Position numbers and translations under genes: made by a program. A stretch of DNA of 64,000 nt, taken from the NCBI RefSeq assembly GCF_900172265.1, contig NZ_FWFK01000002.1, positions 186,001-250,000 of the forward strand. Direction: 5' to 3'. This document shows, piece by piece, positions 293 through 13,028 of the stretch (position 1 is the stretch's first letter; the number at the start of each line of letters is the position of its first letter). The notes below the pieces were generated by a model, which was not told the DNA's origin, did not search any database, and was given only the letters and a program-made list of their open reading frames with translations. Source of the DNA: Roseivivax jejudonensis (GTDB taxonomy: Bacteria > Pseudomonadota > Alphaproteobacteria > Rhodobacterales > Rhodobacteraceae).

Positions 293-1630
293 CTAGCGAT
301 AGGCCGCCAGCGCGCCGTCACCCGTCACGACATACAGCGTGCCGCCCGCAACGATCGGTTCGGTCGTGGCGCCGCCGTCGACCGGTACCTGCGCCGCGAG
401 ACGCCCGTCCGTCGGGGCGAAGCCGCGCAGCGCCCCGTCCGTAGAGGCCACCCACAACAGACCGCCGGCGAGGACGGGCCCGTGGTTCGCGACCGACTGG
501 TCGCGCCGGCGCGCCGGCCGGGCGACAGGCCGCCAGCCGGGCAGGTCCACGGCCCAGATCTGCGCGCCGGTGGCCCGATCAAGCCGCACGAGCTCATTTA
601 GATCGCTGACGAAGTAGACGGAATTGCCGACCACGGCCGGCCGGTCCAGCGCGCCCTTCTCGACGGTCCAGCGCGCCTCGCCGGTGGCCTGGTCGCGCGC
701 GGTGAAGCGGCCCGAGTGCGTGCCGATATAGACCGTGTCGCCGGCCAGGGTCGGATCGCCGGTGACGTCGTCGATGCGCGCCAGCACGCGCCCGCGGCGC
801 GACCCGGCGATGATCTCGCTCCAGACCGTGTCGCCGCCCTGGCGGAAGCGAGACTGGACGGTGCCGTCGCCGAAGGCGAACACCACGCGCTCGGGGCCGA
901 TGGCCGGCGCCGGCGCTCCGGCCACGTTGCCGACATCCGGCACGCCGTCGACGCGCCAGCGCACGCGGCCGTCGCGCGCCTCGATCGCCCAGCCGACGGA
1001 ATCACCCGACGTGATGTAGACGAGCCCGTCGCGGAAGCTCGGCGCGCCGGTCGCGGTGTCCTGCAGGTCCTGCCGCCACACCTCGCCGCCCTGCGCCGGA
1101 TCGAGCGCCACGAGCTCGCCGAAGCCGGAAGCCACGAACAGAAGTCCGCCGCCGAGCGCGAGGCCGCCGCCCTGTGCCTGGAACGCGGCGTCGCGCGCCG
1201 GGACGATCTGCCGTTGCCACAGCACCGCGCCGTTCGTCGACACGGCCGAGACGACGAAATCCGAGGACAGCGTATAGACGCGCGCGCCGTCAGTCACCGG
1301 ATCGGCGTTCAGGCGCTGGCGCTTCACATCGCCTTGCCCGATGTCGACGCTCCAGATCCGCTGCGGCGCCGACGACAGGGCCGCGTGATCGGTCCGGATG
1401 TGCGGGCTGACCGGGCTCTGCGTCCAAGCGCCGTTCTGAACGGGCGCCGGCAGGGCCGCGGGCGCAGCACGGTTGACCGGCGCCCCGGGGTCGCCGTCGC
1501 GGGTGTCGAGCACCTCGCGGATGCCCAGCCGTTCGCCCGGCAGGATGACTTCGCGCTCGCCGCAGGCGGCGAGCGCCGCGATACCCGCCAGCGCCGCCAG
1601 CCTCAGAACCTTCGACCCGTCCACGTTCAC
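293..1630 (-). CDS. bamB: Outer membrane assembly lipoprotein BamB-like, PQQ-type beta-propeller
   Basis: A 445-residue lipoprotein. The N-terminus has a hydrophobic signal ending in the lipobox LAAC (residues 20-23), so the mature protein starts at lipidated Cys23. The rest shows repeated blades with the PQQ-like signature of a hydrophobic-Trp pair (IWSVDIGQG, VLWQRQI, EVWRQDL, RVRWRVDG, EARWTVEKGA, QIWAVDLPG), consistent with an eight-bladed propeller. BamB scaffolds the BAM complex that inserts beta-barrel proteins into the outer membrane. Position between a YfgM-like gene and der is the canonical arrangement. The family also contains other PQQ-repeat lipoproteins, but the synteny makes BamB the best call. 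Confidence 0.85.
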   Translation of the reverse strand: MNVDGSKVLRLAALAGIAALAACGEREVILPGERLGIREVLDTRDGDPGAPVNRAAPAALPAPVQNGAWTQSPVSPHIRTDHAALSSAPQRIWSVDIGQGDVKRQRLNADPVTDGARVYTLSSDFVVSAVSTNGAVLWQRQIVPARDAAFQAQGGGLALGGGLLFVASGFGELVALDPAQGGEVWRQDLQDTATGAPSFRDGLVYITSGDSVGWAIEARDGRVRWRVDGVPDVGNVAGAPAPAIGPERVVFAFGDGTVQSRFRQGGDTVWSEIIAGSRRGRVLARIDDVTGDPTLAGDTVYIGTHSGRFTARDQATGEARWTVEKGALDRPAVVGNSVYFVSDLNELVRLDRATGAQIWAVDLPGWRPVARPARRRDQSVANHGPVLAGGLLWVASTDGALRGFAPTDGRLAAQVPVDGGATTEPIVAGGTLYVVTGDGALAAYR

Positions 1631-1704
1631 CTTCCGCGTCCCTGTTCCTGCCCGTCGCGTCGACCGGCGTTCGGCCCGGCCGGCGGATTGCCCGGATCCG
1701 GCGT

Positions 1705-2358
1705 TCAGGCGCCGTCCTCGATCGAGCCGCCGAGCGCCACAATCAACTGCGATGCGCGCAGGCGCAAGCCTTGGCTGGCCGCGGAATCCTGACGGATCGT
1801 CTGCAGCCGCTCGATCGCGGCCTCGGTGTCACCTGCCTCGATGTCGAGTAGCGCCAGCTGCTCCTCGGCCATCAGTTGCAGCGGCCCGCCCTGCGCCATC
1901 GCCTCGAAGCCGATGCGCCGCTCCTCGGCCGAGACGCCTTCGCGGGTCAGCGCCTTGTAGCTCGCGATCTGGCGGTAGACCGCCTCGGCCTGCATGTCGC
2001 CGACGGCGTTCAGCGTCTCGGCGACCACCGCGGGATCGGCGTCCTCGGCCGCGGCCTGCTCCGCCGCGCGCAGCATGGCGAGGATCGCCGCGGCGGATCC
2101 CTCCGGCGCCTCGATCGCGGCGAGATCGGCCGCGCGCGCCGCCGGTGTCTCGGCCTCCAGGGCTTCCAGCACCGCAGTGCCGAACGCGCGGGCGCGCTCC
2201 GTTTCCTGCGCGGCGCTCCATTCGCGCCACGCCGCACCGCCGACGATGCCGATGACGATCAGGACGGCGATCCAGCCGTAGCGGCGCAGATAGCCATAGA
2301 GGCGGTCGCGCCGGACCTCCTCGCTCACCTCGTCGATGAAACTGTCGGGATTGCTCAC
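1705..2358 (-). CDS. YfgM-like membrane-anchored TPR protein
   Basis: A 217-residue protein starting at a GTG (2358) preceded by an AAAGG ribosome site; the longer in-frame reading upstream lacks such a signal and starts in unlike sequence. Residues 1-28 are cytoplasmic and charged, 29-46 form one membrane helix, and the remainder is alanine-rich helical repeat of TPR type (TPR_21/YfgM class). YfgM-like proteins are ancillary periplasmic chaperones at the Sec translocon. The gene lies 74 bases upstream of the bamB-like gene and probably shares its transcript with it and der. Function here is inferred from family and neighbours. Confidence 0.8.
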   Translation of the reverse strand: MSNPDSFIDEVSEEVRRDRLYGYLRRYGWIAVLIVIGIVGGAAWREWSAAQETERARAFGTAVLEALEAETPAARAADLAAIEAPEGSAAAILAMLRAAEQAAAEDADPAVVAETLNAVGDMQAEAVYRQIASYKALTREGVSAEERRIGFEAMAQGGPLQLMAEEQLALLDIEAGDTEAAIERLQTIRQDSAASQGLRLRASQLIVALGGSIEDGA

Positions 2359-2621
2359 CCGCGCCCCCTTTCCTGTCCTGCCGGACGCTGCCGTTGCCGC
2401 TCCCTTATCGGACCGGGACTTGCCTGCCAAGCAGGCGCCGCGCGCGCCGGTTTCCGCCGCAAGCGTGCGATTTTCGCAATCCCGCCTTGAAGTCTGCGCA
2501 ACAGGCCCCAATCTGAACTACCGAGTTCAGTTTTTTCGTGCCATATGGTTCCAGCACCGGGAATGTTCTTGCGTTCCGCGACGGGTTCGCGGCAAGTGCG
2601 GAGGCGGACAGGAAGAATTCG

Positions 2622-3962
2622 ATGCGCGTATTTCCGCTTCTCCTCGCCGCGCTCGTCGCCGGCTTACTCTATCTTCTCGTGATCGAGCGCGACCGGGTGG
2701 TCGCGACGCTCGCCCCGGTGACGGCCGATCCTGCGCCGACCGAGAACGCGCCTGCCGACACGGCGGCGTCACCGGAGACCGACACCGCCGAAACCACCGA
2801 CCCCACGCCCGATGAACCCGCTGCCGATGGCACCGACGCCGTGCGTGTCATGGCCATGCGCAGCGTCGCGCAGGATATCGACAGCGCCGTCCTCGTCCGC
2901 GGCAAGACCGAGGCGCTGCGCGAAGTCGACGTGATGGTCGAGACGACGGGCAAGATCGTGTCGGACCCGCTGCGGCGCGGCACCTTCGTGTCCGAGGGCG
3001 ATGTCCTTTGCGAGCTCGACCCCGGAACCCGGCGCATCACGCTCGAGGAGGCGCGCGCGGCGCTTGCCGAGGCGCAGGCGAGCGTGCCCGAAGCCGAGGC
3101 GCGTGTGCCCGAGGCCGAGGCCCGCGTGGCCGAGGCCGAAGCTGCGCTGGAGGAGGCGGAGATCAATGCGACCGCCGCAAACGCGCTGTCTGGCTCGGGC
3201 TACGCGTCGGAGACGCGTGTGGCGCAGACGCGGGCCGCCGTGCGCGCCGCCGAGGCCGCAGTGTCCAGCGCGAAGGCCGGGCTCGAGGCCGCGCGATCCG
3301 GGCTCGAAAGCTCTGCCGCGCGCATCCGCTCGGCAGAGGCGGCGGTCGCACGCGCGGAGGACGAGATCGAGAAGCTGACCGTGCGCGCACCGTTCGACGG
3401 CCTGCTCGAAACCGACACGGCGGAACTCGGCGCGCTGATGCAGGCCGGCGGCATGGGCGGCGATCCCTGCGCGACGGTTCTGCAACTCGACCCGATCAAG
3501 CTCGTGGGCTTCGTTCCCGAAACCGCCGTCGCCCGCGTCGCCGTCGGCGCGCCGGCCGCGGCGCGCCTGACCGAAGGCGGCGAGGTGCAGGGCGAGGTCA
3601 CTTTCGTGTCGCGCCGTGCCGACGAAACGACGCGGACGTTCCGTGTCGAGATCCTCGTGGAGAATGACGACCTCGCGCTGTCGGCGGGCCAGACGGCCGA
3701 GATCCGCATCGCGAGCGACGGCGTCGCGGCGCATCTGGTGCCGCAATCGGCGCTCACGCTCGACGACGACGGCGCGCTCGGCGTGCGGCTGGTCGGCGAC
3801 GGCTCGACGGCCCGCTTCGCGCCGGTCGAGATCGTGCGCGACACGCCCGAGGGGCTCTGGGTGCTGGGCCTGCCCGAGACCGCAGACATCATCACGCTGG
3901 GACAGGAATACGTCACCGACGGCGTCGCGGTGGCGCCCTCGTTCGAGGACATCATCCAGTGA
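2622..3962 (+). CDS. RND efflux periplasmic adaptor (HlyD/MFP family)
   Basis: A 446-residue membrane fusion protein. An N-terminal hydrophobic anchor (about residues 3-20) is followed by an acidic Thr/Pro linker, a half lipoyl domain, a long alpha-hairpin (about 140-260) built from near-identical alanine/glutamate heptads such as VPEAEARVPEAEAR, the second lipoyl half (VRAPFDG) and beta-barrel/proximal domains. It would bridge the inner membrane pump encoded next to an outer membrane channel. ATG 2622 is chosen because an AGGAAG site lies just upstream and the anchor starts there. It overlaps the pump gene by four bases (GTGA), so the two are translationally coupled. No TolC-type channel gene is in the window. 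Confidence 0.9.
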   Translation: MRVFPLLLAALVAGLLYLLVIERDRVVATLAPVTADPAPTENAPADTAASPETDTAETTDPTPDEPAADGTDAVRVMAMRSVAQDIDSAVLVRGKTEALREVDVMVETTGKIVSDPLRRGTFVSEGDVLCELDPGTRRITLEEARAALAEAQASVPEAEARVPEAEARVAEAEAALEEAEINATAANALSGSGYASETRVAQTRAAVRAAEAAVSSAKAGLEAARSGLESSAARIRSAEAAVARAEDEIEKLTVRAPFDGLLETDTAELGALMQAGGMGGDPCATVLQLDPIKLVGFVPETAVARVAVGAPAAARLTEGGEVQGEVTFVSRRADETTRTFRVEILVENDDLALSAGQTAEIRIASDGVAAHLVPQSALTLDDDGALGVRLVGDGSTARFAPVEIVRDTPEGLWVLGLPETADIITLGQEYVTDGVAVAPSFEDIIQ

Positions 3963-6900
3963 CCGGGATCGTCGACTGGGCGGCCAGCCGGGCGCGGATG
4001 GTTCTGGCCTTCATCGTGCTGTCGCTTGTCGTCGGCACAACGGCCTATATCGCGCTGCCGAAGGAAGGCGAGCCGGACATCGAGATCCCGGCGTTGTTCG
4101 TGTCCGTTCCGTTCCCCGGCATCAGCGCCGAGGATTCCGAGCAGCTTCTCGTGCGTCCGATGGAAACCGAGATGCAGGATCTCGACGGGCTGAAGGAGAT
4201 GTCGGGCACCGCGGCCGAGAACTATGCCGGCCTCGCGCTCGAATTCGAGTTCGGCTGGGACAAGACCAAGGTCATGGCCGACGTGCGCGACGCCATGACG
4301 CGCGCCGAGGCCCAGTTTCCCGAGGGCGCCGAACAATACTCGATCAACGAGATCAATTTCTCGGAGTTTCCGATTGTCGTGGTCAACCTGACCGGCCCCG
4401 TGCCGGAGCGCACGATGGCGCGTGTCGCCAAGGATCTGCAGGACAGGATCGAGGGGCTCGACGCGGTGCTGCAGGCCGGTATCGCCGGCAATCGCGACGA
4501 GATGCTCGAGGTGCTGATCGACCCGCTCCGGCTCGAGAGCTACAACGTCACAGCGGCCGAGCTGATCAACGTCGTCCAGAACAACAACCAGTTGATCGCG
4601 GCCGGCGAGGTCGAGACCGCGCAGGGCGCCTTTGCGGTCAAGATCCCGTCCTCGTTCGACGAGGCGCGCGATGTCTACGACCTGCCGGTCAAGGTGAACG
4701 GGGACCGCGTCGTCACGCTCGGCGATCTCGCCACGATTAACCTGACCTTCGAGGACCGTACCGGAACGTCGCGCTTCAACGGCGAACGCTCGCTCGCCCT
4801 GCAGGTGGTGAAGCGCAAGGGTTACAACCTGATCGACACCGTCGACGAGGTCGAGCGGCTGGTCGCGGAGGCCGAGGCCGACTGGCCGGAAGAGCTGCAG
4901 GCGGCGGTGACCATCGGCACGTCGAACGACCAGTCGCGGCAAGTCGCCTCCATGATCAGCCAGTTGCAGGGCTCTGTTCTGACGGCCGTGGCGCTGGTGA
5001 TGATCGTGGTGCTGGCCGCGCTCGGCCTCCGGCCGGCGCTGCTTGTCGGGTTCGCGATCCCGACCTCGTTCCTGCTGTGCTTCGCGTTCCTCGCGCTGAT
5101 GGGTGTGTCGATCTCGAACATCGTGATGTTCGGACTGATCCTCGCTGTCGGCATGCTGGTCGACGGCGCGATCGTGGTCGTCGAGTACGCCGACAAGCGC
5201 ATCGCCGAGGGCGTCGGACCCATGCACGCCTATACCGACGCGGCCAAGCGCATGTTCTGGCCGGTCGTGTCCTCGACCGCGACGACGCTGTGCGCCTTTC
5301 TGCCGATGCTGTTCTGGCCCGGCGTTCCGGGCGAGTTCATGGGCATGCTGCCGGTGACGCTGATTTTCGTGCTGTCGGCGTCGTTGATTGTCGCGCTTGT
5401 CTACCTGCCGGTGATGGGCGGTGTCGTCGGCCGGCTGGAGCGGTGGCTCTCCGGAATGACCGGTGCGATCTCGCGGCTTCCGTTCCTTCTGAACCTCGCG
5501 CTCTTGCCGGTCTGCATCATCGCGATCGGGGCCGGCGCGGCGGGCATCCCGCTGCTGTTGCAGCTCGCCTCCGGCACCTACGCGGGCATCGACTCGGGTG
5601 ACATCTGGGGATCCGTCGTGCCCACCTTCGCCGGGATATTCATTCTGCTGCTGGGCGGGCTGATCCTCTTGGCCTTCGCGCTTGTGGGCGGGATGTTCCT
5701 CGTCCTGGCGCTCGCTGCGTTCTTCGGCCGGATCGGGCGCGGTGCGTCCGCGCTGCGGCGTCGGCTGACCGGCGGCGCCGGCGAGGACCGGATCAAGTCG
5801 GGCTACCGTCGTTCGCCATTCGGCCGGTTCATCGCGCTGATCGCAAAGAATCCGCTCGGGCCCATCGTGGCCGCCGGCGCGATCTTCGTCTTCGTCGGGA
5901 CGACGTTCATCTACTACGGCGAGAATCAGAACGGAGTGGAGTTCTTCGTCGAGAGCGAGCCGGAATTCGCCCTCGTCTACGTCCGCGCCCGCGGCAATCT
6001 GAGCCTCGAGGAGAAGGACGCACTGGTCCGGCGGGCCGAGGACATCGTGTTGGCCCATCCGGGCGTGCTGTCGGCGTTCGCCTTTGCCGGCGAAAGCGGG
6101 CTCGACAACAACACCGGCGGCGCGGAAGCGCCGAAGGACACGATCGGGCAGGTCCAGTTCGAGACGATCCCGTGGGAGGACCGGATCGGCGATCCGGCGC
6201 TCGACGGCGACGTGGTGATCGCCGAGCTGACCGACCAGCTCGATACGATCCCTGGGATCGAGACCGAAATCCTGAACCTCGCGCAGGGCCCGGCCGCCGC
6301 GAAGCCGCTGCACCTGCGGATCACCGGCCAGAACTGGGATGATCTGCTTGCCGTAACGACCGCGGCACGCGCGCGCTTCGACGACATTCCGGGCCTGCGG
6401 CTGGTGGAGGACACGCGGCCCCTGCCCGGCATCGACTGGCAGATCGACGTGGACGTGGAAAAGGCCGGACGCTACGGCGCCGACGTCGCAACCGTGGGCG
6501 CGATGGTGCAGTTGGTGACGCGCGGCATTCTCCTCGACACCATGCGGGTCGACACCTCGGACGAGGAGATCGACATCCGGGTGAGGCTGCCCGAAGAGGA
6601 TCGGCTTCTCTCGACGCTCGACACACTTCGGGTGCGCACGTCGGACGGTCTGGTGCCACTGTCGAACTTCGTGACCCGCCGGCCGGTCGATACGCTGGCG
6701 GAGATCAATCGTGTCGACCAGAAACGGCATTTCGACGTGAAGGCGGACGTGGCCCCCGGTCTCGCCAAGGCGGTGGACGCGGACGGCGCGATCGCCGCGA
6801 CCCTGCGCCTTGCGTCCGGGGGCGACGGAGGCGGCGGGCCGCGCATCGAGGGCCCGGACGGCAGCTACACGATCGTCTCGGCCGCCGAGGGGGTAACGCC

Positions 6901-7777
6901 TGGCTCGCTCGGCGCGGACCTCCGCGCCGGCGCGCTCTCGGTCGAGCCTGTGAACGCGAACGAGCGGATCGCCGTCCTGACCGAATGGCTCGAGGCGCAG
7001 GACCTGCCGGCCGGCATCGGCTGGGAATGGACGGGCGATCAGGAGGATCAGGCCGAGAGCACGGCGTTCCTCGGTCAGGCTTTCGGTGCCGCGCTCGGCC
7101 TGATGTTCATCATTCTGCTCGCGCAGTTCAATTCGATCTACAACGCCGGTCTCGTGCTGCTTGCCGTCGTCCTGTCGACCGCCGGCGTGCTGATCGGCAT
7201 GCTCGTCATGGGGCAGACCTTTTCGATCATCATGACAGGCACCGGCATCGTCGCGCTGGCCGGGATCGTGGTGAACAACAACATCGTGCTGATCGACACC
7301 TACCAGGAATACGAACGCTACATGCCGCGCGACGAGGCGGTGGTGCGCACGGCCGAGGACCGGATCCGCCCTGTCCTTCTGACCACGATCACGACGATGG
7401 CGGGCCTCGCGCCGATGATGTTCGGGCTCAGCCTCGATTTCTTCGGCGGCGGCTATACGATCGACAGCCCGACCGCGCTCTGGTGGAAACAGCTGGCGAC
7501 TGCCGTGGTGTTCGGCCTCGGCATCGCGACGGTCCTGACGCTTGTCTTCACGCCGGCCATGCTGGCCGCGCGCGTGTGGGTCGCGACCTACGCAACGTGG
7601 ATCGGCCGCGCGCTGTCGGCACTGTCGCTCGGCCGGGCCAGCCGCGCCGCGCAGGATTGGGCGGTGACCGCCCGCGCCCGCGACCTTCCGGCCCCGACGA
7701 TCATCTGGGACGACGAGGATGCCGGTCCGCGCCTCGAATCGACGGACACAATTCCGCCGCTGCGCGCCGCCGAGTGA
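3959..7777 (+). CDS. RND efflux permease, unusually long (1272 residues)
   Basis: Inner membrane pump of the AcrB/HAE type, driven by protons. It has an N-terminal helix, a large porter domain, a helix bundle (about 330-500), a second porter domain and a terminal bundle. The helix-4 signature reads GMLVDGAIVVVEY with Asp402 followed by Gly403 rather than the usual Asp-Asp pair. The helix-10 region reads GIVVNNNIVLID, without the lysine of AcrB. Between the two halves, residues about 500-610 contain extra hydrophobic segments not needed for the usual 12-helix plan, which accounts for part of the excess length over the usual 1000-1050. Start GTG at 3959 overlaps the adaptor stop. Substrate unknown. 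Confidence 0.9.
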   Translation: MTGIVDWAASRARMVLAFIVLSLVVGTTAYIALPKEGEPDIEIPALFVSVPFPGISAEDSEQLLVRPMETEMQDLDGLKEMSGTAAENYAGLALEFEFGWDKTKVMADVRDAMTRAEAQFPEGAEQYSINEINFSEFPIVVVNLTGPVPERTMARVAKDLQDRIEGLDAVLQAGIAGNRDEMLEVLIDPLRLESYNVTAAELINVVQNNNQLIAAGEVETAQGAFAVKIPSSFDEARDVYDLPVKVNGDRVVTLGDLATINLTFEDRTGTSRFNGERSLALQVVKRKGYNLIDTVDEVERLVAEAEADWPEELQAAVTIGTSNDQSRQVASMISQLQGSVLTAVALVMIVVLAALGLRPALLVGFAIPTSFLLCFAFLALMGVSISNIVMFGLILAVGMLVDGAIVVVEYADKRIAEGVGPMHAYTDAAKRMFWPVVSSTATTLCAFLPMLFWPGVPGEFMGMLPVTLIFVLSASLIVALVYLPVMGGVVGRLERWLSGMTGAISRLPFLLNLALLPVCIIAIGAGAAGIPLLLQLASGTYAGIDSGDIWGSVVPTFAGIFILLLGGLILLAFALVGGMFLVLALAAFFGRIGRGASALRRRLTGGAGEDRIKSGYRRSPFGRFIALIAKNPLGPIVAAGAIFVFVGTTFIYYGENQNGVEFFVESEPEFALVYVRARGNLSLEEKDALVRRAEDIVLAHPGVLSAFAFAGESGLDNNTGGAEAPKDTIGQVQFETIPWEDRIGDPALDGDVVIAELTDQLDTIPGIETEILNLAQGPAAAKPLHLRITGQNWDDLLAVTTAARARFDDIPGLRLVEDTRPLPGIDWQIDVDVEKAGRYGADVATVGAMVQLVTRGILLDTMRVDTSDEEIDIRVRLPEEDRLLSTLDTLRVRTSDGLVPLSNFVTRRPVDTLAEINRVDQKRHFDVKADVAPGLAKAVDADGAIAATLRLASGGDGGGGPRIEGPDGSYTIVSAAEGVTPGSLGADLRAGALSVEPVNANERIAVLTEWLEAQDLPAGIGWEWTGDQEDQAESTAFLGQAFGAALGLMFIILLAQFNSIYNAGLVLLAVVLSTAGVLIGMLVMGQTFSIIMTGTGIVALAGIVVNNNIVLIDTYQEYERYMPRDEAVVRTAEDRIRPVLLTTITTMAGLAPMMFGLSLDFFGGGYTIDSPTALWWKQLATAVVFGLGIATVLTLVFTPAMLAARVWVATYATWIGRALSALSLGRASRAAQDWAVTARARDLPAPTIIWDDEDAGPRLESTDTIPPLRAAE

Positions 7778-7869
7778 GCCCGGCCGCGGGCCGTCCGGGC
7801 GGGCTGTCGGCGACAATGCCTGCATGCCGCGGAGATTGTCCGTCGTTTCTCATCAAATGCGACTAAACC

Positions 7870-7898
7870 TTGGCGCAGCCGCCTGAAATCGCTAGTGT
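7870..7898 (+). promoter_or_regulatory. Possible promoter of the VPEID-CTERM gene
   Basis: TTGGCG (7870-7875) and TAGTGT (7893-7898) are separated by 17 bases and stand about 29 bases upstream of the ATG at 7927. This is only a pattern match to sigma-70-like hexamers. It is the best candidate in the 149-base gap after the RND operon. Confidence 0.3.
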
Positions 7899-7926
7899 CC
7901 CCATGGTTGGATTAGGGACGTGACAG

Positions 7927-8187
7927 ATGCTCAACACATTTTACAAAGCGCTTAGCGCCGTCGCCGTTTACGCGATGTTCACCGCACCGGCCCATGCGCA
8001 GTCCGCGGGCGGCTGGTATTCGTGGTTCCGCAGCTGGGTCGATGGTGCCGTCGGTGGTCGTACCTCCGGGCGCGAAGCCAACGCCGTGCCGGAAATCGAC
8101 GCATCGACCGGCCTGCTGACGCTCGCCGCCGTCGCGGCGGCTCTGGCGCTCGCCTACGAGATCAACCGCCGGCGCAAGTCCGCCTGA
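7927..8187 (+). CDS. VPEID-CTERM sorting-signal protein, tiny exosortase substrate
   Basis: An 86-residue protein of three parts. Residues 1-24 are a Sec signal peptide ending AHA. Residues 25-53 are a 29-residue mature segment with Trp30, Trp33 and Trp37. The C-terminal sorting tail has VPEID at 54-58, a membrane helix at about 62-77 and the basic end RRRKSA. This tripartite motif-helix-basic tail is the signature of PEP-CTERM-like substrates, and VPEID is the variant paired with the exosortase E/protease family. The exosortase gene lies 18 bases away on the opposite strand, tail to tail. If cut at the motif, only about 30 residues would be released or transferred; the role of that peptide is unknown. 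Confidence 0.88.
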   Translation: MLNTFYKALSAVAVYAMFTAPAHAQSAGGWYSWFRSWVDGAVGGRTSGREANAVPEIDASTGLLTLAAVAAALALAYEINRRRKSA

Positions 8188-8205
8188 GCGGATCCGGCGC
8201 GGGGC

Positions 8206-9777
8206 TCAGATCAGCGACCAGTCGCCCGACAGCAGCGCCGCGCCCGCGATCACGAGGTTCGCGCTCGCATGGGCGACGATGGCGTCGGACAGCCGGCCCT
8301 GTCGCAGCATGACGAGCGCGAAGACCAGACCGGCGACACCGGCGGCCACAGGCCGCCCGTGGAGCGCCGCAAACAGACCGGCCGAGGCGGCGACGGCGCC
8401 GGCACGGCCCCACCCTGTCCCGGGATCGAGACGGGTCAGCACGTATCCGCGAAAGAACGCTTCCTCGACCACCGGCACCAGGAGGCCGGTGCCGATGACG
8501 CGTGCCGCGATCCAGAGCGCGAGCGCCGCGCCCGACAGCGCCCCGATTCCGATATCGCCGCCGGGGCCCGCCGTGATCAGCCAGACCGCCCCGACCCCGA
8601 TGCCAGCCGCCAGGGCGACAGGGTCGATCCGCCAGTCGATGGCCATCAAGGGACGCCGCACGTACCACAGAGCCGCCGCGATCGCCGCGGCCTGCAACGG
8701 ATAGCCCACTGCCGGCGCGGTGAACGCCATGTGCACGATGATCCCCGAGAGCATGCAGACGATGAACGGCAGGATCCGGGCAACGGCCCAATCCTCGCGC
8801 ATCGTGCCCTCATCGCTGCCGCGCGGCCTCGGATCGCGGTGCAGCCACGGCACCGCCTGTACGCCCGCGATCACGCCGAGCGCGAGGATGGTGAAGTAGA
8901 ACCAGCCGGCGAAACTGTGAAAACCGTTGACCGCGAGCTCCGGCGACACGTGCGCGCCGATCAGGATCAGCGCCGCGATCCGCACGACGTTGAGCGCCCA
9001 TGACAGCAACAGGCCCAGCGGCCAGACCACCAGCCAGAACCGCCCCCAGCGGATGATATCGCGAAAGATCACCGCGTAGATGGCGAGAAAACCGGTCAGC
9101 AACGCGAAGCCCTCGATGCCCGAGCATTGGCTTGCGACGATCACCGCGAAACCGTCGAGCCCGATCGTCGCCATGCCCGGATCGACGTTCACCGCAGGCG
9201 CGATCAGGCGCAGGAGGCCGGCCGTCGCACCGAACGTGCCCTCGACCAGCGGATCGAGCGCCCAGAGCGGGGCGAGCAGCGCCGCGAGATCGGGAATCAG
9301 CAACGCGAGCACGCAGACACCAAGGATCGACGTCCCGTCGCGGCGCAGCCAGTCGCGCCATGCGCGTGCCGGCATCACCCAAAGCAGTCCGGCGACGGCG
9401 GCGAGGAGACCGCCGCCGAGCAGGCCCGCGAACACGCGCGCGAAGCCGTCGTGGATCGTCGCCGGTGTCACCGTCAGAAGCGGGGCGAAGATGGCGAGCA
9501 CGCCGATGCCGTGCAGGAGCGGCCACACCCACCGGCGCGCCACGACCTTGCCCGAGGCTCCGACGAAGCGGTGGCGCAGGTCCGGCTTGGCCCAAAGCAG
9601 CACCGCAACGCCCGAGCCGAGACTGATCGCGCGCACCAGCGCACCCCGCAGCGCCCGGCAGGCGCCTTCGATATCGGTCAGCCGACACTCGACCGAGGCC
9701 AGCACCTGGAAGACCAGCACGATCAGCACGGCCTCGAGGGCGAAAAGCGTGGCGATGAAGGCGAGGCGTCGACCCAT
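8206..9777 (-). CDS. Exosortase E / CPBP intramembrane protease fusion (VPEID-CTERM system)
   Basis: A 523-residue polytopic membrane protein with two fused enzyme domains. The N-terminal two thirds is an exosortase: Cys218 in SQCSGIEGF, Arg266 in ALNVVRIAAL and His287 in NGFHSFAGW form the expected Cys-Arg-His set. The C-terminal third is a CPBP (Abi/Rce1-like) protease: EEAFFRG (Glu438, Glu439, Arg443), His473 in FAALHG and His503/Asn507 in AHASAN. The exosortase would cut the VPEID motif of a membrane-inserted substrate and pass it to an acceptor; the job of the CPBP part is not known. ATG 9777 is chosen since the first membrane helix begins there; 9829-9831 is an alternative start. Confidence 0.9.
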   Translation of the reverse strand: MGRRLAFIATLFALEAVLIVLVFQVLASVECRLTDIEGACRALRGALVRAISLGSGVAVLLWAKPDLRHRFVGASGKVVARRWVWPLLHGIGVLAIFAPLLTVTPATIHDGFARVFAGLLGGGLLAAVAGLLWVMPARAWRDWLRRDGTSILGVCVLALLIPDLAALLAPLWALDPLVEGTFGATAGLLRLIAPAVNVDPGMATIGLDGFAVIVASQCSGIEGFALLTGFLAIYAVIFRDIIRWGRFWLVVWPLGLLLSWALNVVRIAALILIGAHVSPELAVNGFHSFAGWFYFTILALGVIAGVQAVPWLHRDPRPRGSDEGTMREDWAVARILPFIVCMLSGIIVHMAFTAPAVGYPLQAAAIAAALWYVRRPLMAIDWRIDPVALAAGIGVGAVWLITAGPGGDIGIGALSGAALALWIAARVIGTGLLVPVVEEAFFRGYVLTRLDPGTGWGRAGAVAASAGLFAALHGRPVAAGVAGLVFALVMLRQGRLSDAIVAHASANLVIAGAALLSGDWSLI

Positions 9778-9970
9778 GACTGTCCCATTCGTCCGTTCCG
9801 GGCCGTGGCGATACCGCGCAAACGTGGTCATGTCATGCCCAAGGTGGCACCGTTTCGTGATCCCGTGCCAACGCTGCCGCGCACCGCGGCGTCGCGAGCC
9901 TCGCTCGAGTCGGTCTTGTGCGCGTGACCCCACGATTGCATGCCGCCGGCGTTAGCGCTATCAGCTGGAC

Positions 9971-10855
9971 ATGCATCGGACCCGAAACCTCTCCGGCAGC
10001 GTGCTCGATGGCGTCGGCCTGCGCCTGCTCGCGGTCTTTCTGCTGACGGCGATGTCGGCTGCTGTCCGCGAAGCGAGCCAGACGGTGCCGGTCGGCCAGA
10101 TCGTGTTCGTCCGGTCGGCGCTGGCGCTCTTGCCGATCCTTCTCTGGCTTCGCTGGCGCCATGGCCTGCGCGCCGGGCTGACCACCGAACGGCCGGCCGC
10201 GCACCTCTTGCGCGGGCTTCTCGGCGCGGTCTCGATCACGTTGTCCTTCATCTCTCTGGCCGCGCTGCCAGTGACCAGCGCCAAGGCGCTTTCGTACCTC
10301 GCACCGGTCCTGTCGGTGCCGCTCGCCGCGATGGTGCTGCGAGAGCGCGTGGGCGCTGCGGCGCTCGTGGCGCTGGCCGTCGCGCTCGCCGGAACGGCGG
10401 CAATGCTGCACGGCGCACTTGTCCTGCCCGGCCCCGGCGCCGCAATCGGCATCGCGGCGGGGCTCGGCTTCGCGCTCACGATGGCGGTCGTGCGCGTGCT
10501 GGTGCGCGACATGACCCGGACCGAGGCGCCGGCGGCGATCGCGGCCAGCATGGCGGCGATTTCGGCGCTCTGTGCGCTGCTGTCGCTGCCATTCGGATGG
10601 GTGATGCCCGAAGGTGGTGCCTGGGTGTCGCTGCTGGCGACGGGCCTTCTCGGTGGCTTCGCGGCCATCGCGGGAACGGAGGCGATCGCCCGCGCGCCGG
10701 TGGCGGCGCTGGCCCCGGTCGAGTATTCGGGTCTTGTCTGGGCCCTGCTCTTCGACGTTCTGCTGTTTGCGACCCTGCCCGACCGCTGGGCGCTGGCGGG
10801 CGCGGGCCTGATCCTCGTCGCTGCGCTGATCGTGACGCTGCGCGGCGCGCGCTAG
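9971..10855 (+). CDS. DMT-superfamily transporter with two EamA domains
   Basis: A 294-residue membrane protein with about ten helices arranged as two EamA repeats, the usual drug/metabolite transporter form. Residues near the start (AVREASQ, then an Arg-rich turn RWRHG) and the paired LAPVLSVPLAAMVLRER and LAPVEYSGLVWALLFD segments match the conserved ends of each repeat. Such proteins export amino acids, nucleobases or similar small solutes; the substrate cannot be read from sequence. Its TAG stop is shared, on the palindrome CTAG at 10852-10855, with the stop of the convergent small gene on the minus strand. Confidence 0.87.
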   Translation: MHRTRNLSGSVLDGVGLRLLAVFLLTAMSAAVREASQTVPVGQIVFVRSALALLPILLWLRWRHGLRAGLTTERPAAHLLRGLLGAVSITLSFISLAALPVTSAKALSYLAPVLSVPLAAMVLRERVGAAALVALAVALAGTAAMLHGALVLPGPGAAIGIAAGLGFALTMAVVRVLVRDMTRTEAPAAIAASMAAISALCALLSLPFGWVMPEGGAWVSLLATGLLGGFAAIAGTEAIARAPVAALAPVEYSGLVWALLFDVLLFATLPDRWALAGAGLILVAALIVTLRGAR

Positions 10856-11193
10856 CCGCCGGCCGCCGCGCGCGCAGCGGGGTCGAGCGCCTCCCACCAA
10901 TCGGCGTAGCCTGTGTTCTTCGGGTGCTTGCCGCCCTCGTCCGGCGCGCCGTCGCTCCACCAGACCGGGCCGCGCTCTCCGAGGCGCCGCTTGGCCGCAT
11001 CGACCGCGTCGCGCGCCTCCCGTTCAGCGGCCGCCTCCGTGGCCTGCCCGACCGCGCGCCGGGCCTGCATCAGCGCCTTGATCGCCGCCCGGCGTTCGCT
11101 GTCGTCGAGCCGCGGGTCGGTCTTGCGCCAGAGCCGCCCCTTGGCCACGAAGTAGCGTCCGTCGGGCGTTTCGGGATAGTCCTTGCGGCTCAC
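10852..11193 (-). CDS. Small hypothetical protein coupled to the Atm1-type exporter
   Basis: A 113-residue, charged, soluble-looking protein. GTG 11193 is the start, because the GTGA overlap with the exporter stop (11190-11192) indicates translational coupling. The first part (RKDYPETPDGRYFV, GRLWRKTDP) and a helical Arg/Ala-rich middle are followed by a Trp-rich end (PVWWSDGAPDEGG, YADWWEALDP). I recall similar short proteins of unknown function in alphaproteobacteria but cannot name a family. There is no signal peptide or membrane segment. Stop codon shared with the convergent EamA gene on CTAG. Confidence 0.75.
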   Translation of the reverse strand: MSRKDYPETPDGRYFVAKGRLWRKTDPRLDDSERRAAIKALMQARRAVGQATEAAAEREARDAVDAAKRRLGERGPVWWSDGAPDEGGKHPKNTGYADWWEALDPAARAAAGG

Positions 11194-13028
11194 GCTGCAT
11201 CCTCGCGTTCCGCCGCCTGCCGCGCCCAGAGCCCGGCATACCGGCCGCGCCGCGCGAGAAGCTCGGTATGGGTGCCCTCTTCGACCACGACGCCAGCCTC
11301 CAGCACCACGATCCGGTCGGCATCCGCGATGGTCGACAGCCGGTGCGCAATGGTAAGGACGGACCGGCCCTCGGCGGCGCGGGCCAGCGCGCCCTGGATC
11401 TCCTGCTCGGTGTCGGTGTCGAGCGCGGAGGTCGCCTCGTCCAGAAGCAGGATCGGCGGGTCCTTCAGAAGCGTCCGGGCGATGCCAACGCGCTGCTTCT
11501 CGCCACCCGACAGCTTGAGCCCGCGTTCGCCCACCTGCGTGTCGTAGCCGTCTGGCAGCGACGCCACGAAATCGTGGATCTGCGCCGCCCGCGCCGCCGC
11601 CTCGATCTCTTCCTGCGTCGCGTTCTCGCGACCGTAGGCAATGTTGTAGCGGATCGTGTCGTTGAACAGCACCGTGTCCTGCGGCACCACGCCGATCGCG
11701 GAATGCAGGCTCTCCTGCGTCACGTCGCGGATGTCCTGCCCGTCGATGCGGATCGCGCCGTCGGAGACGTCGTAGAACCGGAAGAGCAGCCGCCCGATCG
11801 TCGACTTCCCCGATCCGGACGGCCCGACGAGCGCGACGCTCTCGCCCGCCCCGACGGTCAGCGATACGCCCTTCAGGATCGCCCGATCGCTGTCGTAGCC
11901 GAAGCGGATCGCGTCGAACTCGACGACGCCGTCGCTCACCCGCAGCGCCGGCGCGCCCGGCTTGTCGGCGACCTCCGCCGGCTGCTCCAGCAGGTCGAAC
12001 ATCTGGCCCATGTCGACGAGGCTCTGGCGGATCTCGCGGTAGACCGTGCCGAGGAAGTTCAGCGGCATGGTGATCTGGATCATGTACGCGTTGACCATCA
12101 CGAAGTCGCCGACGGTCAGCGTGCCCGCCGCGACGCCCCGCGCGGCCATCACCATGACACCGACGAGCCCCGAGGTGATGATGAGCGCCTGCCCGAAATT
12201 GAGCGCGGCGAGCGACACCTGCGTCTGGATCGCCGCCCGCTCGTAGCCCCGCATCGCCATGTCGTAGCGCGCCGCCTCGCGCGCCTCGGCGCCGAAATAC
12301 TTCACGGTCTCGAAATTCAGCAGCGAATCGATCGCCTTCTGGTTCGCGTCGGTGTCCTGATCGTTCATCCGGCGCCGCAGGCGGACCCGCCACTCGGTGA
12401 CCTTGAAGGTGAACCCCACATATGCCGCGATCGTCGCCGTCACGACCACGAGGTACCACGGATCGAACAGCACGAAGAGGACACCCGCGATCAGCACCAA
12501 CTCCAGAACCAGCGGCCCGATCGAGAACAGAAGGAAGCGCAACAGGAACTCGACGCCCTTCACGCCGCGCTCGATGATACGGCTGAGCCCCCCGGTGCGC
12601 CGTGTCAGGTGGTAGCGCAGGCTGAGCCGGTGGATGTGGCGGAAAGTCTCGAGCGCGATGGTCCGCAGGGCGCGCTGCCCGACGCGCGAAAACACCGCGT
12701 CGCGCAGCTGCTGGAACCCCGTGTTCATGAGCCGGGCCATGCCGTAGGCCACCGTCAGGGCGACCGCCCCGGCCCCGAGCGCCCAGGCGGGCGTGATCTC
12801 GCCCTCGGTCAGCGCATCGACCGCGGCCTTGTAGAACAGCGGCGTGCCCACCGCGATGATCTTGGCGATCACCAGCAACGACAGCGCGACGACGACCCGC
12901 CGCTTCACCCAGGGCTGACCGTCTGGCCAGAGATAGGGGGCCACGCGCCGGATCGTACGCAGCCCCGAGCGCCGCTCGCCGGCGGCGAGGGCGCGGTCAT
13001 CGTCGGACTGGCTGGCGTCGGGCGGCAT
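11190..13028 (-). CDS. ABC exporter of the Atm1/HMT1 (ABCB7) type
   Basis: A 612-residue half-transporter: six membrane helices in the first 330 residues, then one ATPase domain. Walker A GPSGSGKST is near residue 404, the signature LSGGEKQR near 504, Walker B ILLLDEATSALD near 528 and the H-loop IAHRLSTI near 564. The membrane part carries family-typical stretches such as RTGGLSRIIERG, DQDTDANQKAIDSLLNFE and TVKYFGAE, which mark the Atm1 group that exports glutathione-linked sulfur or metal adducts. It acts as a homodimer in the inner membrane. The following 113-residue gene overlaps its end by four bases. Confidence 0.88.
   Translation of the reverse strand: MPPDASQSDDDRALAAGERRSGLRTIRRVAPYLWPDGQPWVKRRVVVALSLLVIAKIIAVGTPLFYKAAVDALTEGEITPAWALGAGAVALTVAYGMARLMNTGFQQLRDAVFSRVGQRALRTIALETFRHIHRLSLRYHLTRRTGGLSRIIERGVKGVEFLLRFLLFSIGPLVLELVLIAGVLFVLFDPWYLVVVTATIAAYVGFTFKVTEWRVRLRRRMNDQDTDANQKAIDSLLNFETVKYFGAEAREAARYDMAMRGYERAAIQTQVSLAALNFGQALIITSGLVGVMVMAARGVAAGTLTVGDFVMVNAYMIQITMPLNFLGTVYREIRQSLVDMGQMFDLLEQPAEVADKPGAPALRVSDGVVEFDAIRFGYDSDRAILKGVSLTVGAGESVALVGPSGSGKSTIGRLLFRFYDVSDGAIRIDGQDIRDVTQESLHSAIGVVPQDTVLFNDTIRYNIAYGRENATQEEIEAAARAAQIHDFVASLPDGYDTQVGERGLKLSGGEKQRVGIARTLLKDPPILLLDEATSALDTDTEQEIQGALARAAEGRSVLTIAHRLSTIADADRIVVLEAGVVVEEGTHTELLARRGRYAGLWARQAAEREDAA

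Follow-up and report, generated by a model that had tools for sequence, protein, structure and literature searches.

The 64,000-nucleotide stretch of Roseivivax jejudonensis DNA analysed here (the window) contains a gene for an exosortase E (XrtE) fused to a CPBP/CAAX protease and, facing it, a gene for a miniprotein with a VPEID-CTERM tail. With moderate confidence, we regard the two as an exosortase E system dedicated to a single surface peptide. This reading is based on the two genes themselves, on the kept active sites of the enzyme, on the one-to-one pairing of enzyme and tail, on a tail that is kept while the segment before it varies, and on the clean presence or absence of the pair.

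The enzyme, the miniprotein and their genome

The start of the enzyme gene was set at the ATG at 9777 (523 aa), the mechanically called ORF extending upstream to 9933 (575 aa). Against TIGR04162 the protein scored 563 bits (cut-off 150, E 5e-169) over positions 3-516 of 516. Both halves also passed the cut-offs of their own models: TIGR03008 (107 bits; cut-off 81) and PF02517 (59 bits) for the CPBP half, and PF09721 (45 bits) and TIGR04178 for the exosortase half.

The initial annotation had placed an exosortase site at Cys218, Arg266 and His287 and a CPBP site at Glu438/Glu439, His473, His503 and Asn507, and all of these residues were found at those positions, the last two forming an HxxxN motif. 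In an alignment of 36 enzyme sequences, representing at most 35 genomes since L042 and L110 are one contig, the three exosortase residues were kept in 36/36, as was Arg443, and the other CPBP residues in 35/36. The single exception was L049, a short metagenome contig in which the frame is apparently broken. An AlphaFold2 model of the enzyme (15 sequences) reached a mean pLDDT of 85.7 and a pTM of 0.70; a Foldseek search of the PDB with the whole model returned no solved structure at E<=0.001, so the model gives neither fold independent support.

The miniprotein matched TIGR04161 with 54.9 bits (cut-off 33, E 6e-15) over residues 54-83 of 86. It consists of a predicted signal peptide (approximately residues 1-24), a Trp/Gly/Ser-rich segment (approximately 25-53), the VPEID motif (54-58), a hydrophobic membrane helix and the terminal sequence NRRRKSA. 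The helix and basic tail after VPEID in an 86-residue ORF, and the convergent arrangement of the two genes with 18 bases between them, had been described before and were borne out from the ORFs of the window. The signal peptide was assigned by eye and with a rough script; the cut preferred by eye falls between AHA and Q (AHA/Q), two residues after that given by the script, and cleavage there is predicted to leave 29 residues (25-53) before VPEID. A promoter and terminator scan of the window gave results near chance level.

Table 1. Coordinates in the window of the two genes, the presumed active sites of the enzyme and the surrounding features.
Feature	Position	Strand	Evidence or remark
VPEID-CTERM miniprotein, 86 aa	7927..8187	+	TIGR04161 match; sole such tail found in the genome
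Exosortase E (XrtE) fused to CPBP/CAAX protease, 523 aa	8206..9777	-	TIGR04162, PF09721, PF02517, TIGR03008
Codons 218-219 (Cys218-Ser219), presumed exosortase nucleophile	9121..9126	-	Conservation; coordinates counted from start 9777
Codons 438-443 (EExxxR), presumed CPBP active site	8449..8466	-	Conservation; coordinates counted from start 9777
2.2-kb unit holding the pair alone, between RND and EamA genes	7778..9970	.	Absent at the site in 7 congeners
RND transporter, flank, not thought part of the system	3959..7777	+	PF00873, 484 bits
EamA transporter, other flank, not thought part of the system	9971..10855	+	PF00892, 71 bits

Profile searches of the whole genome (4.31 Mb, 21 contigs, 99.98% complete) found one match to TIGR04162, one match to the exosortase family and one VPEID tail over the TIGR04161 cut-off, the runner-up scoring 13.3 bits. 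A broader model, made from 40 tails, returned the known tail alone (next best E 0.89), and a search for PEP-CTERM tails with TIGR02595 came up empty at E 10. The scan for further tails of the VPEID-helix-basic type, on which the initial annotation had made its one-enzyme, one-substrate reading depend, thus yielded one tail and not dozens. With a single exosortase, a single VPEID tail and no PEP-CTERM tail found, that reading holds. The idea of many hidden targets in this genome was rejected, as neither the curated nor the broader nor the PEP-CTERM tail model found any others.

Distribution and genomic setting of the pair

Genomes were sampled at one per species, drawn evenly, giving 149 of the family and 385 of the class. 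The full enzyme was present over the TIGR04162 cut-off in 22/149 family genomes. The class-level search with the same model (E<=1e-20) matched 4/385 genomes: that of the window, one already counted (G075), one more of the same family (G170) and one of another family (G200). The 22 genomes and G170 make up the 23 family genomes with a full enzyme.

In the 22 enzyme genomes the curated tail model detected one tail in 18, four in G027 and none at E<=0.01 in G007, G017 and G141. At E<1e-5 the broader model found exactly one tail in 21 of the 23 genomes, four in G027 and six in G141; since most of the tails it recovered had also been used to build it, this count tests for extra copies rather than for presence. 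The tails of G141, G170 and G200 were not in the model, nor were ten enzyme-free control genomes, which were hand-picked and not a random draw: none of these ten had a tail at E<1e-5, and eight gave a match at E 0.04 to 1. With one tail in 21/23 family genomes, the dedicated pairing in the window is nothing special. Enzyme and tail were separated by <=0.5 kb in 20/23. The distant pairs were those of G034, with the tail 2.5 Mb off, of G146, on different contigs near their ends, and of G141, where the nearest tail lies 1.4 kb away.

The exosortase E class can have several targets, as seen in G027 and G141. The six tails of G141, found by the broader model at E 1e-9 to 2e-6, all lie in frames of 203-539 aa; five of these larger, VPEV-type-tailed proteins are clustered after a divergent exosortase E (L127, 11474-17574) and the sixth lies elsewhere, which makes this a many-to-one relative of the system. 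In G027, three VPEID miniproteins in a row adjoin the enzyme (L114, 10558-11540, minus strand) and show no recognisable signal peptides; the fourth, which has one, is in L134. The broader model gave three tails in G200. In G142 the enzyme is cut by the contig end, and one tail is present.

One tail each was found in G048 and G134 (miniproteins of loci L131 and L132), with no TIGR04162 match in either genome; the general exosortase model gave one match in G048 and none in G134 or G142. The G134 contig ends inside a gene of the thioester-domain-like (TED-like) type described below. G048 and G134, the four tails of G027, the six of G141 and the distant tail of G034 were all counted against the explanation by a dedicated system. 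G104 was dropped as a chance match (20.9 bits inside a 510-aa frame). In the enzyme tree, the exosortase E of a contig labelled Nocardioides marinus (L040, JAHVJD010000006.1) stood next to that of the window among Rhodobacteraceae rows; this assembly is probably contaminated or mislabelled.

The neighbours scanned (window 293-13028) were PQQ/BamB-like, TPR-like (below cut-off), HlyD, RND, EamA and ABC genes, with no polysaccharide genes among these six. Within the genus, a VPEID tail was found at E<=0.01 in 2/9 genomes, that of the window and G531 (31 bits, below the cut-off of 33). The G531 pair occupies a different locus of the TED-linked type, made up of a large protein, the VPEID gene and the enzyme; its enzyme is 60% identical to that of the TED-linked locus L123 and 42% identical to that of the window. 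The RND gene of the window was present in 7/8 congeners at 73-83% identity, the match in G538 being split in two; G533 gave only a 49% match. It is followed by EamA in G536, G535 and G531 and by the ABC gene in G534, G537, G532 and G538. Within about 8 kb beyond the RND gene in these seven congeners, neither the miniprotein nor the enzyme was matched (E 1e-5). A functional link of the pair to the RND/EamA/ABC flank was rejected, the congeners keeping the flank without the pair.

The RND flank is common to 12/36 rows of the enzyme tree, including that of the window and others from different genera. These rows stood on one side of a branch with support 98/96 against the other labelled rows; the group tests set aside 10/36 rows, some of them inside the RND group. 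L042 and the broken L049 were left out of the tree, and L037 and L041, on the contigs of L114 and L111, out of the neighbourhood set. We read the flank in the 12 rows as an inherited position. Since the pair lies beside the same flank in other genera, its absence in the congeners is more likely the result of loss than a sign of new insertion in the window; the unit may also have been regained by exchange.

Among 72,556 plasmid records, 12 matched the enzyme at E 1e-20, and all 12 were annotated as xrtE, exosortase E/protease, VPEID-CTERM system. Six plasmid loci, all from Rhodobacterales, were inspected: L179, L183 and L184 lie among polysaccharide-type genes, L180 and L184 have a TED-like protein, and a VPEID tail was found in five of the stretches and not in L179.

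A near-palindrome, GTTAGCGCTATC, was seen just before the EamA gene at window 9951-9962, with similar words before EamA in G536, G535 and G531. It looks like a repressor operator, although the three matches in the window exceed chance only weakly.

Mature segments and the TED-linked branch

Forty-four substrates were compared, leaving out the six tails of G141, which are on larger proteins, and L042, on the same contig as L110. The rough script assigned a signal peptide to 39/44, with a predicted segment of 5-39 aa before the VPEID-type motif; cuts were placed only <=60 residues from the motif, so that longer segments could not be returned, and the start codons of substrates with a long open frame (e.g. 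L116, L123) are uncertain. No signal peptide could be recognised in the other five (three in G027, one in G017, one in G142), which was counted against the dedicated-system explanation. The small size of the substrate, pointed out earlier for the window, proved common in the family, being found in all substrates collected except those of G141.

The segments were of two styles. Those in the RND context (11 peptides), to which the pair of the window belongs, have 25-33 residues with 12.3% Trp, 21% Gly and 22% Ser, and those linked to TED-like genes (8 peptides) have 8-18 residues with no Trp and 11.7% Cys. Pairwise comparison with shuffled sequences (z>3) was made within each group; L114, L149 and substrates lacking a signal peptide were left out, and 8/13 TED-linked loci were covered. 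The tails were alike in 55/55 RND-context and 28/28 TED-linked pairs, the segments in 14/55 and 1/28, and the signal peptides in 11/55 and 9/28. Length and composition of the segment are thus kept more than its sequence, and strong sequence conservation of the mature segment was rejected. The short segment, which is conserved no better than the signal peptide, may serve for spacing only and have no further function, a point against the dedicated-system explanation. That the partners in relatives are mostly peptide-sized and quick to change hints at an unusual job.

At 13 loci (L119, L121-L126, L132, L135 and L048, followed by L171, L180 and L184) a large protein with a TED-like C-terminus is encoded beside the VPEID gene. 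SdrD_B repeats exceeded the Pfam cut-off in 4/4 large proteins scanned; for Pfam TED (PF08341), one of the same four was over the cut-off, two were below it and one was unlisted at E 0.1. In the shared C-terminal region, Tyr-Cys ... Gln-x-Ala-x-Trp was invariant in 10/10 sequences (the first ten loci); a Cys/Gln pattern of this kind is characteristic of thioester domains. CxC occurs at or near the end of 12/13 large proteins, that of L184 being the exception. By eye, no obvious signal peptide was seen in these proteins. When the TED-like alignment was searched against PDB profiles, no match appeared at E 1, and a single-sequence structure model of the region was unusable (pLDDT 36).

Full-length TED-like matches (>100 bits) were found in 11/149 genomes, namely in 8/22 with the enzyme vs 3/127 without it (Fisher p 8e-6, uncorrected for relatedness). 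The enzyme-free genomes were G001, G063 and G134, the last of these with a VPEID gene. In G063, the TED-like relative (L163, 3381-8783) is without the conserved Cys; there is no exosortase E and no VPEID tail in this genome, which has two other exosortase-family matches. Other genomes gave weaker matches (20-70 bits), most of which cover the first 40-80 positions and were taken to be a putative common repeat domain. Nine TED-linked enzymes stood on one side of a branch of the tree with support 97/96. The VPEID peptide has exactly two Cys at 7/13 TED-linked loci and none at 6/13. No match to the TED-like protein was found in the genome of the window. That one branch of the enzyme is repeatedly linked to TED-like proteins would suggest a role in adhesion.

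Proposed function and relation to known systems

In the proposed dedicated system, Sec would export the miniprotein, and the C-terminal helix would keep it in the inner membrane. The Cys-Arg-His site of the exosortase would then cut it at or near VPEID, and the new C-terminus would probably become attached to an acceptor in the envelope, an amino lipid or some other molecule. The glutamic protease fused to the exosortase would also take part in this pathway, perhaps by removing the helix that is left over or by cutting a second time. The expected product, about 29 residues long, is a short peptide that stays anchored and has a head rich in Trp, followed by a spacer rich in Gly and Ser. Export, cleavage at VPEID, anchoring of the C-terminus and the role of the CPBP half are suggested by analogy with known systems: PMC7157517 argues for C-terminal processing and lipidation with archaeosortase ArtA, and PMC11980579 describes the cleavage of a C-terminal tag by the CPBP enzyme MrtX. 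The function of the peptide at the surface is a guess.

The peptide could instead be released as an outside signal or an antagonist of other cells, the two halves of the enzyme making the two freeing cuts. Two fused proteases, peptide-sized and variable segments that are Trp-rich in one context and Cys-rich in the other, and the tandem set of three variants adjoining the enzyme in G027 are compatible with such a role. We consider it unlikely, however: the unit has two genes only, with no immunity gene, receptor or exporter of its own evident, congeners keep the flanking transport genes without the pair, and the products of exosortases are said in PMC11980579 to stay anchored. It is very improbable that the enzyme also processes proteins with tails outside the models used. 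The divergent VPEV tails on the larger proteins of G141 were missed by the curated model at E<=0.01, which would allow for such targets, but the broader model, which was made without the G141 tails and yet finds them, gave the known tail alone in this genome, and the PEP-CTERM model gave none.

The miniprotein could have drifted until little more than a shell was left, and the pair could be what remains, in decay, of a larger system linked to exopolysaccharide, in line with segments of down to 5 residues (G200), with the patchy presence of the tail in the genus and of the enzyme in the family, and with the three plasmid loci among polysaccharide-type genes. The active-site residues and the tail, however, are kept over deep divergence, and adjacency is kept in most family genomes, which makes decay distinctly doubtful. 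The miniprotein could also be a helper, the real surface product of the TED-linked branch being the large TED-like protein and the VPEID peptide its anchor or catch. The 13 neighbouring TED-like genes, their enrichment in enzyme genomes, the grouping of the nine enzymes, the very short segments of this branch and the Cys pairs in its peptides favour this role. TED-like matches are nevertheless lacking in the genome of the window and in 14/22 enzyme genomes, G001 and G063 have relatives of the protein but no VPEID tail, the Cys pair is missing at 6/13 loci, and the link may be an inherited neighbourhood; we hold the helper role to be quite unlikely. There is only a slim chance that the miniproteins are tiny, fast-evolving peptide catches fixed on the envelope by the enzyme, to which a separately exported partner (the TED-like protein in the TED-linked branch) is bound covalently, with the Trp-rich peptide of the window's relatives serving another, unlinked partner; if true, Gram-negative bacteria would have a system in two parts for anchoring adhesins.

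That most exosortases serve many large targets is, to our knowledge, part of what makes their surface product hard to establish. A two-gene pair with one target and a peptide-sized product, present or cleanly absent within a genus, is small and tractable enough to help identify what an exosortase makes chemically and to tell apart what the exosortase half and the CPBP half each do. In one open-access literature library the term VPEID-CTERM was not found, and the small-substrate rule, the two peptide styles and the TED-like link were not among the matches listed there.

The pair of the window exceeds both cut-offs of the VPEID-CTERM / exosortase E system (TIGR04161 and TIGR04162), and nothing was found that would set it outside that family; it is an ordinary member of a family modelled by NCBI and named xrtE in public records. 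It resembles PEP-CTERM / exosortase (EpsH) systems in its motif-helix-basic tail and its exosortase half (PF09721, TIGR04178), and differs from them in having one target, a fused protease and no polysaccharide genes among its six neighbours. The protease modelled by TIGR03008 is frequently encoded on its own in PEP-CTERM loci. The large neighbours in the TED-linked branch are like TED (PF08341) fibrillar adhesins in the SdrD_B repeats of the four scanned and in the C-terminal Cys/Gln pair; only one of these four passed the TED cut-off, and the genome of the window has no match. That a sorting enzyme may be dedicated to a single target is already established, as presented for rhombosortase systems in PMC3237569, and the pair of the window is similar to them in that one enzyme and one target are co-encoded, although the enzyme family differs. 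The same likeness, again with a different enzyme family, applies to the two-gene MrtJ / JDVT-CTERM system as outlined in PMC11980579.
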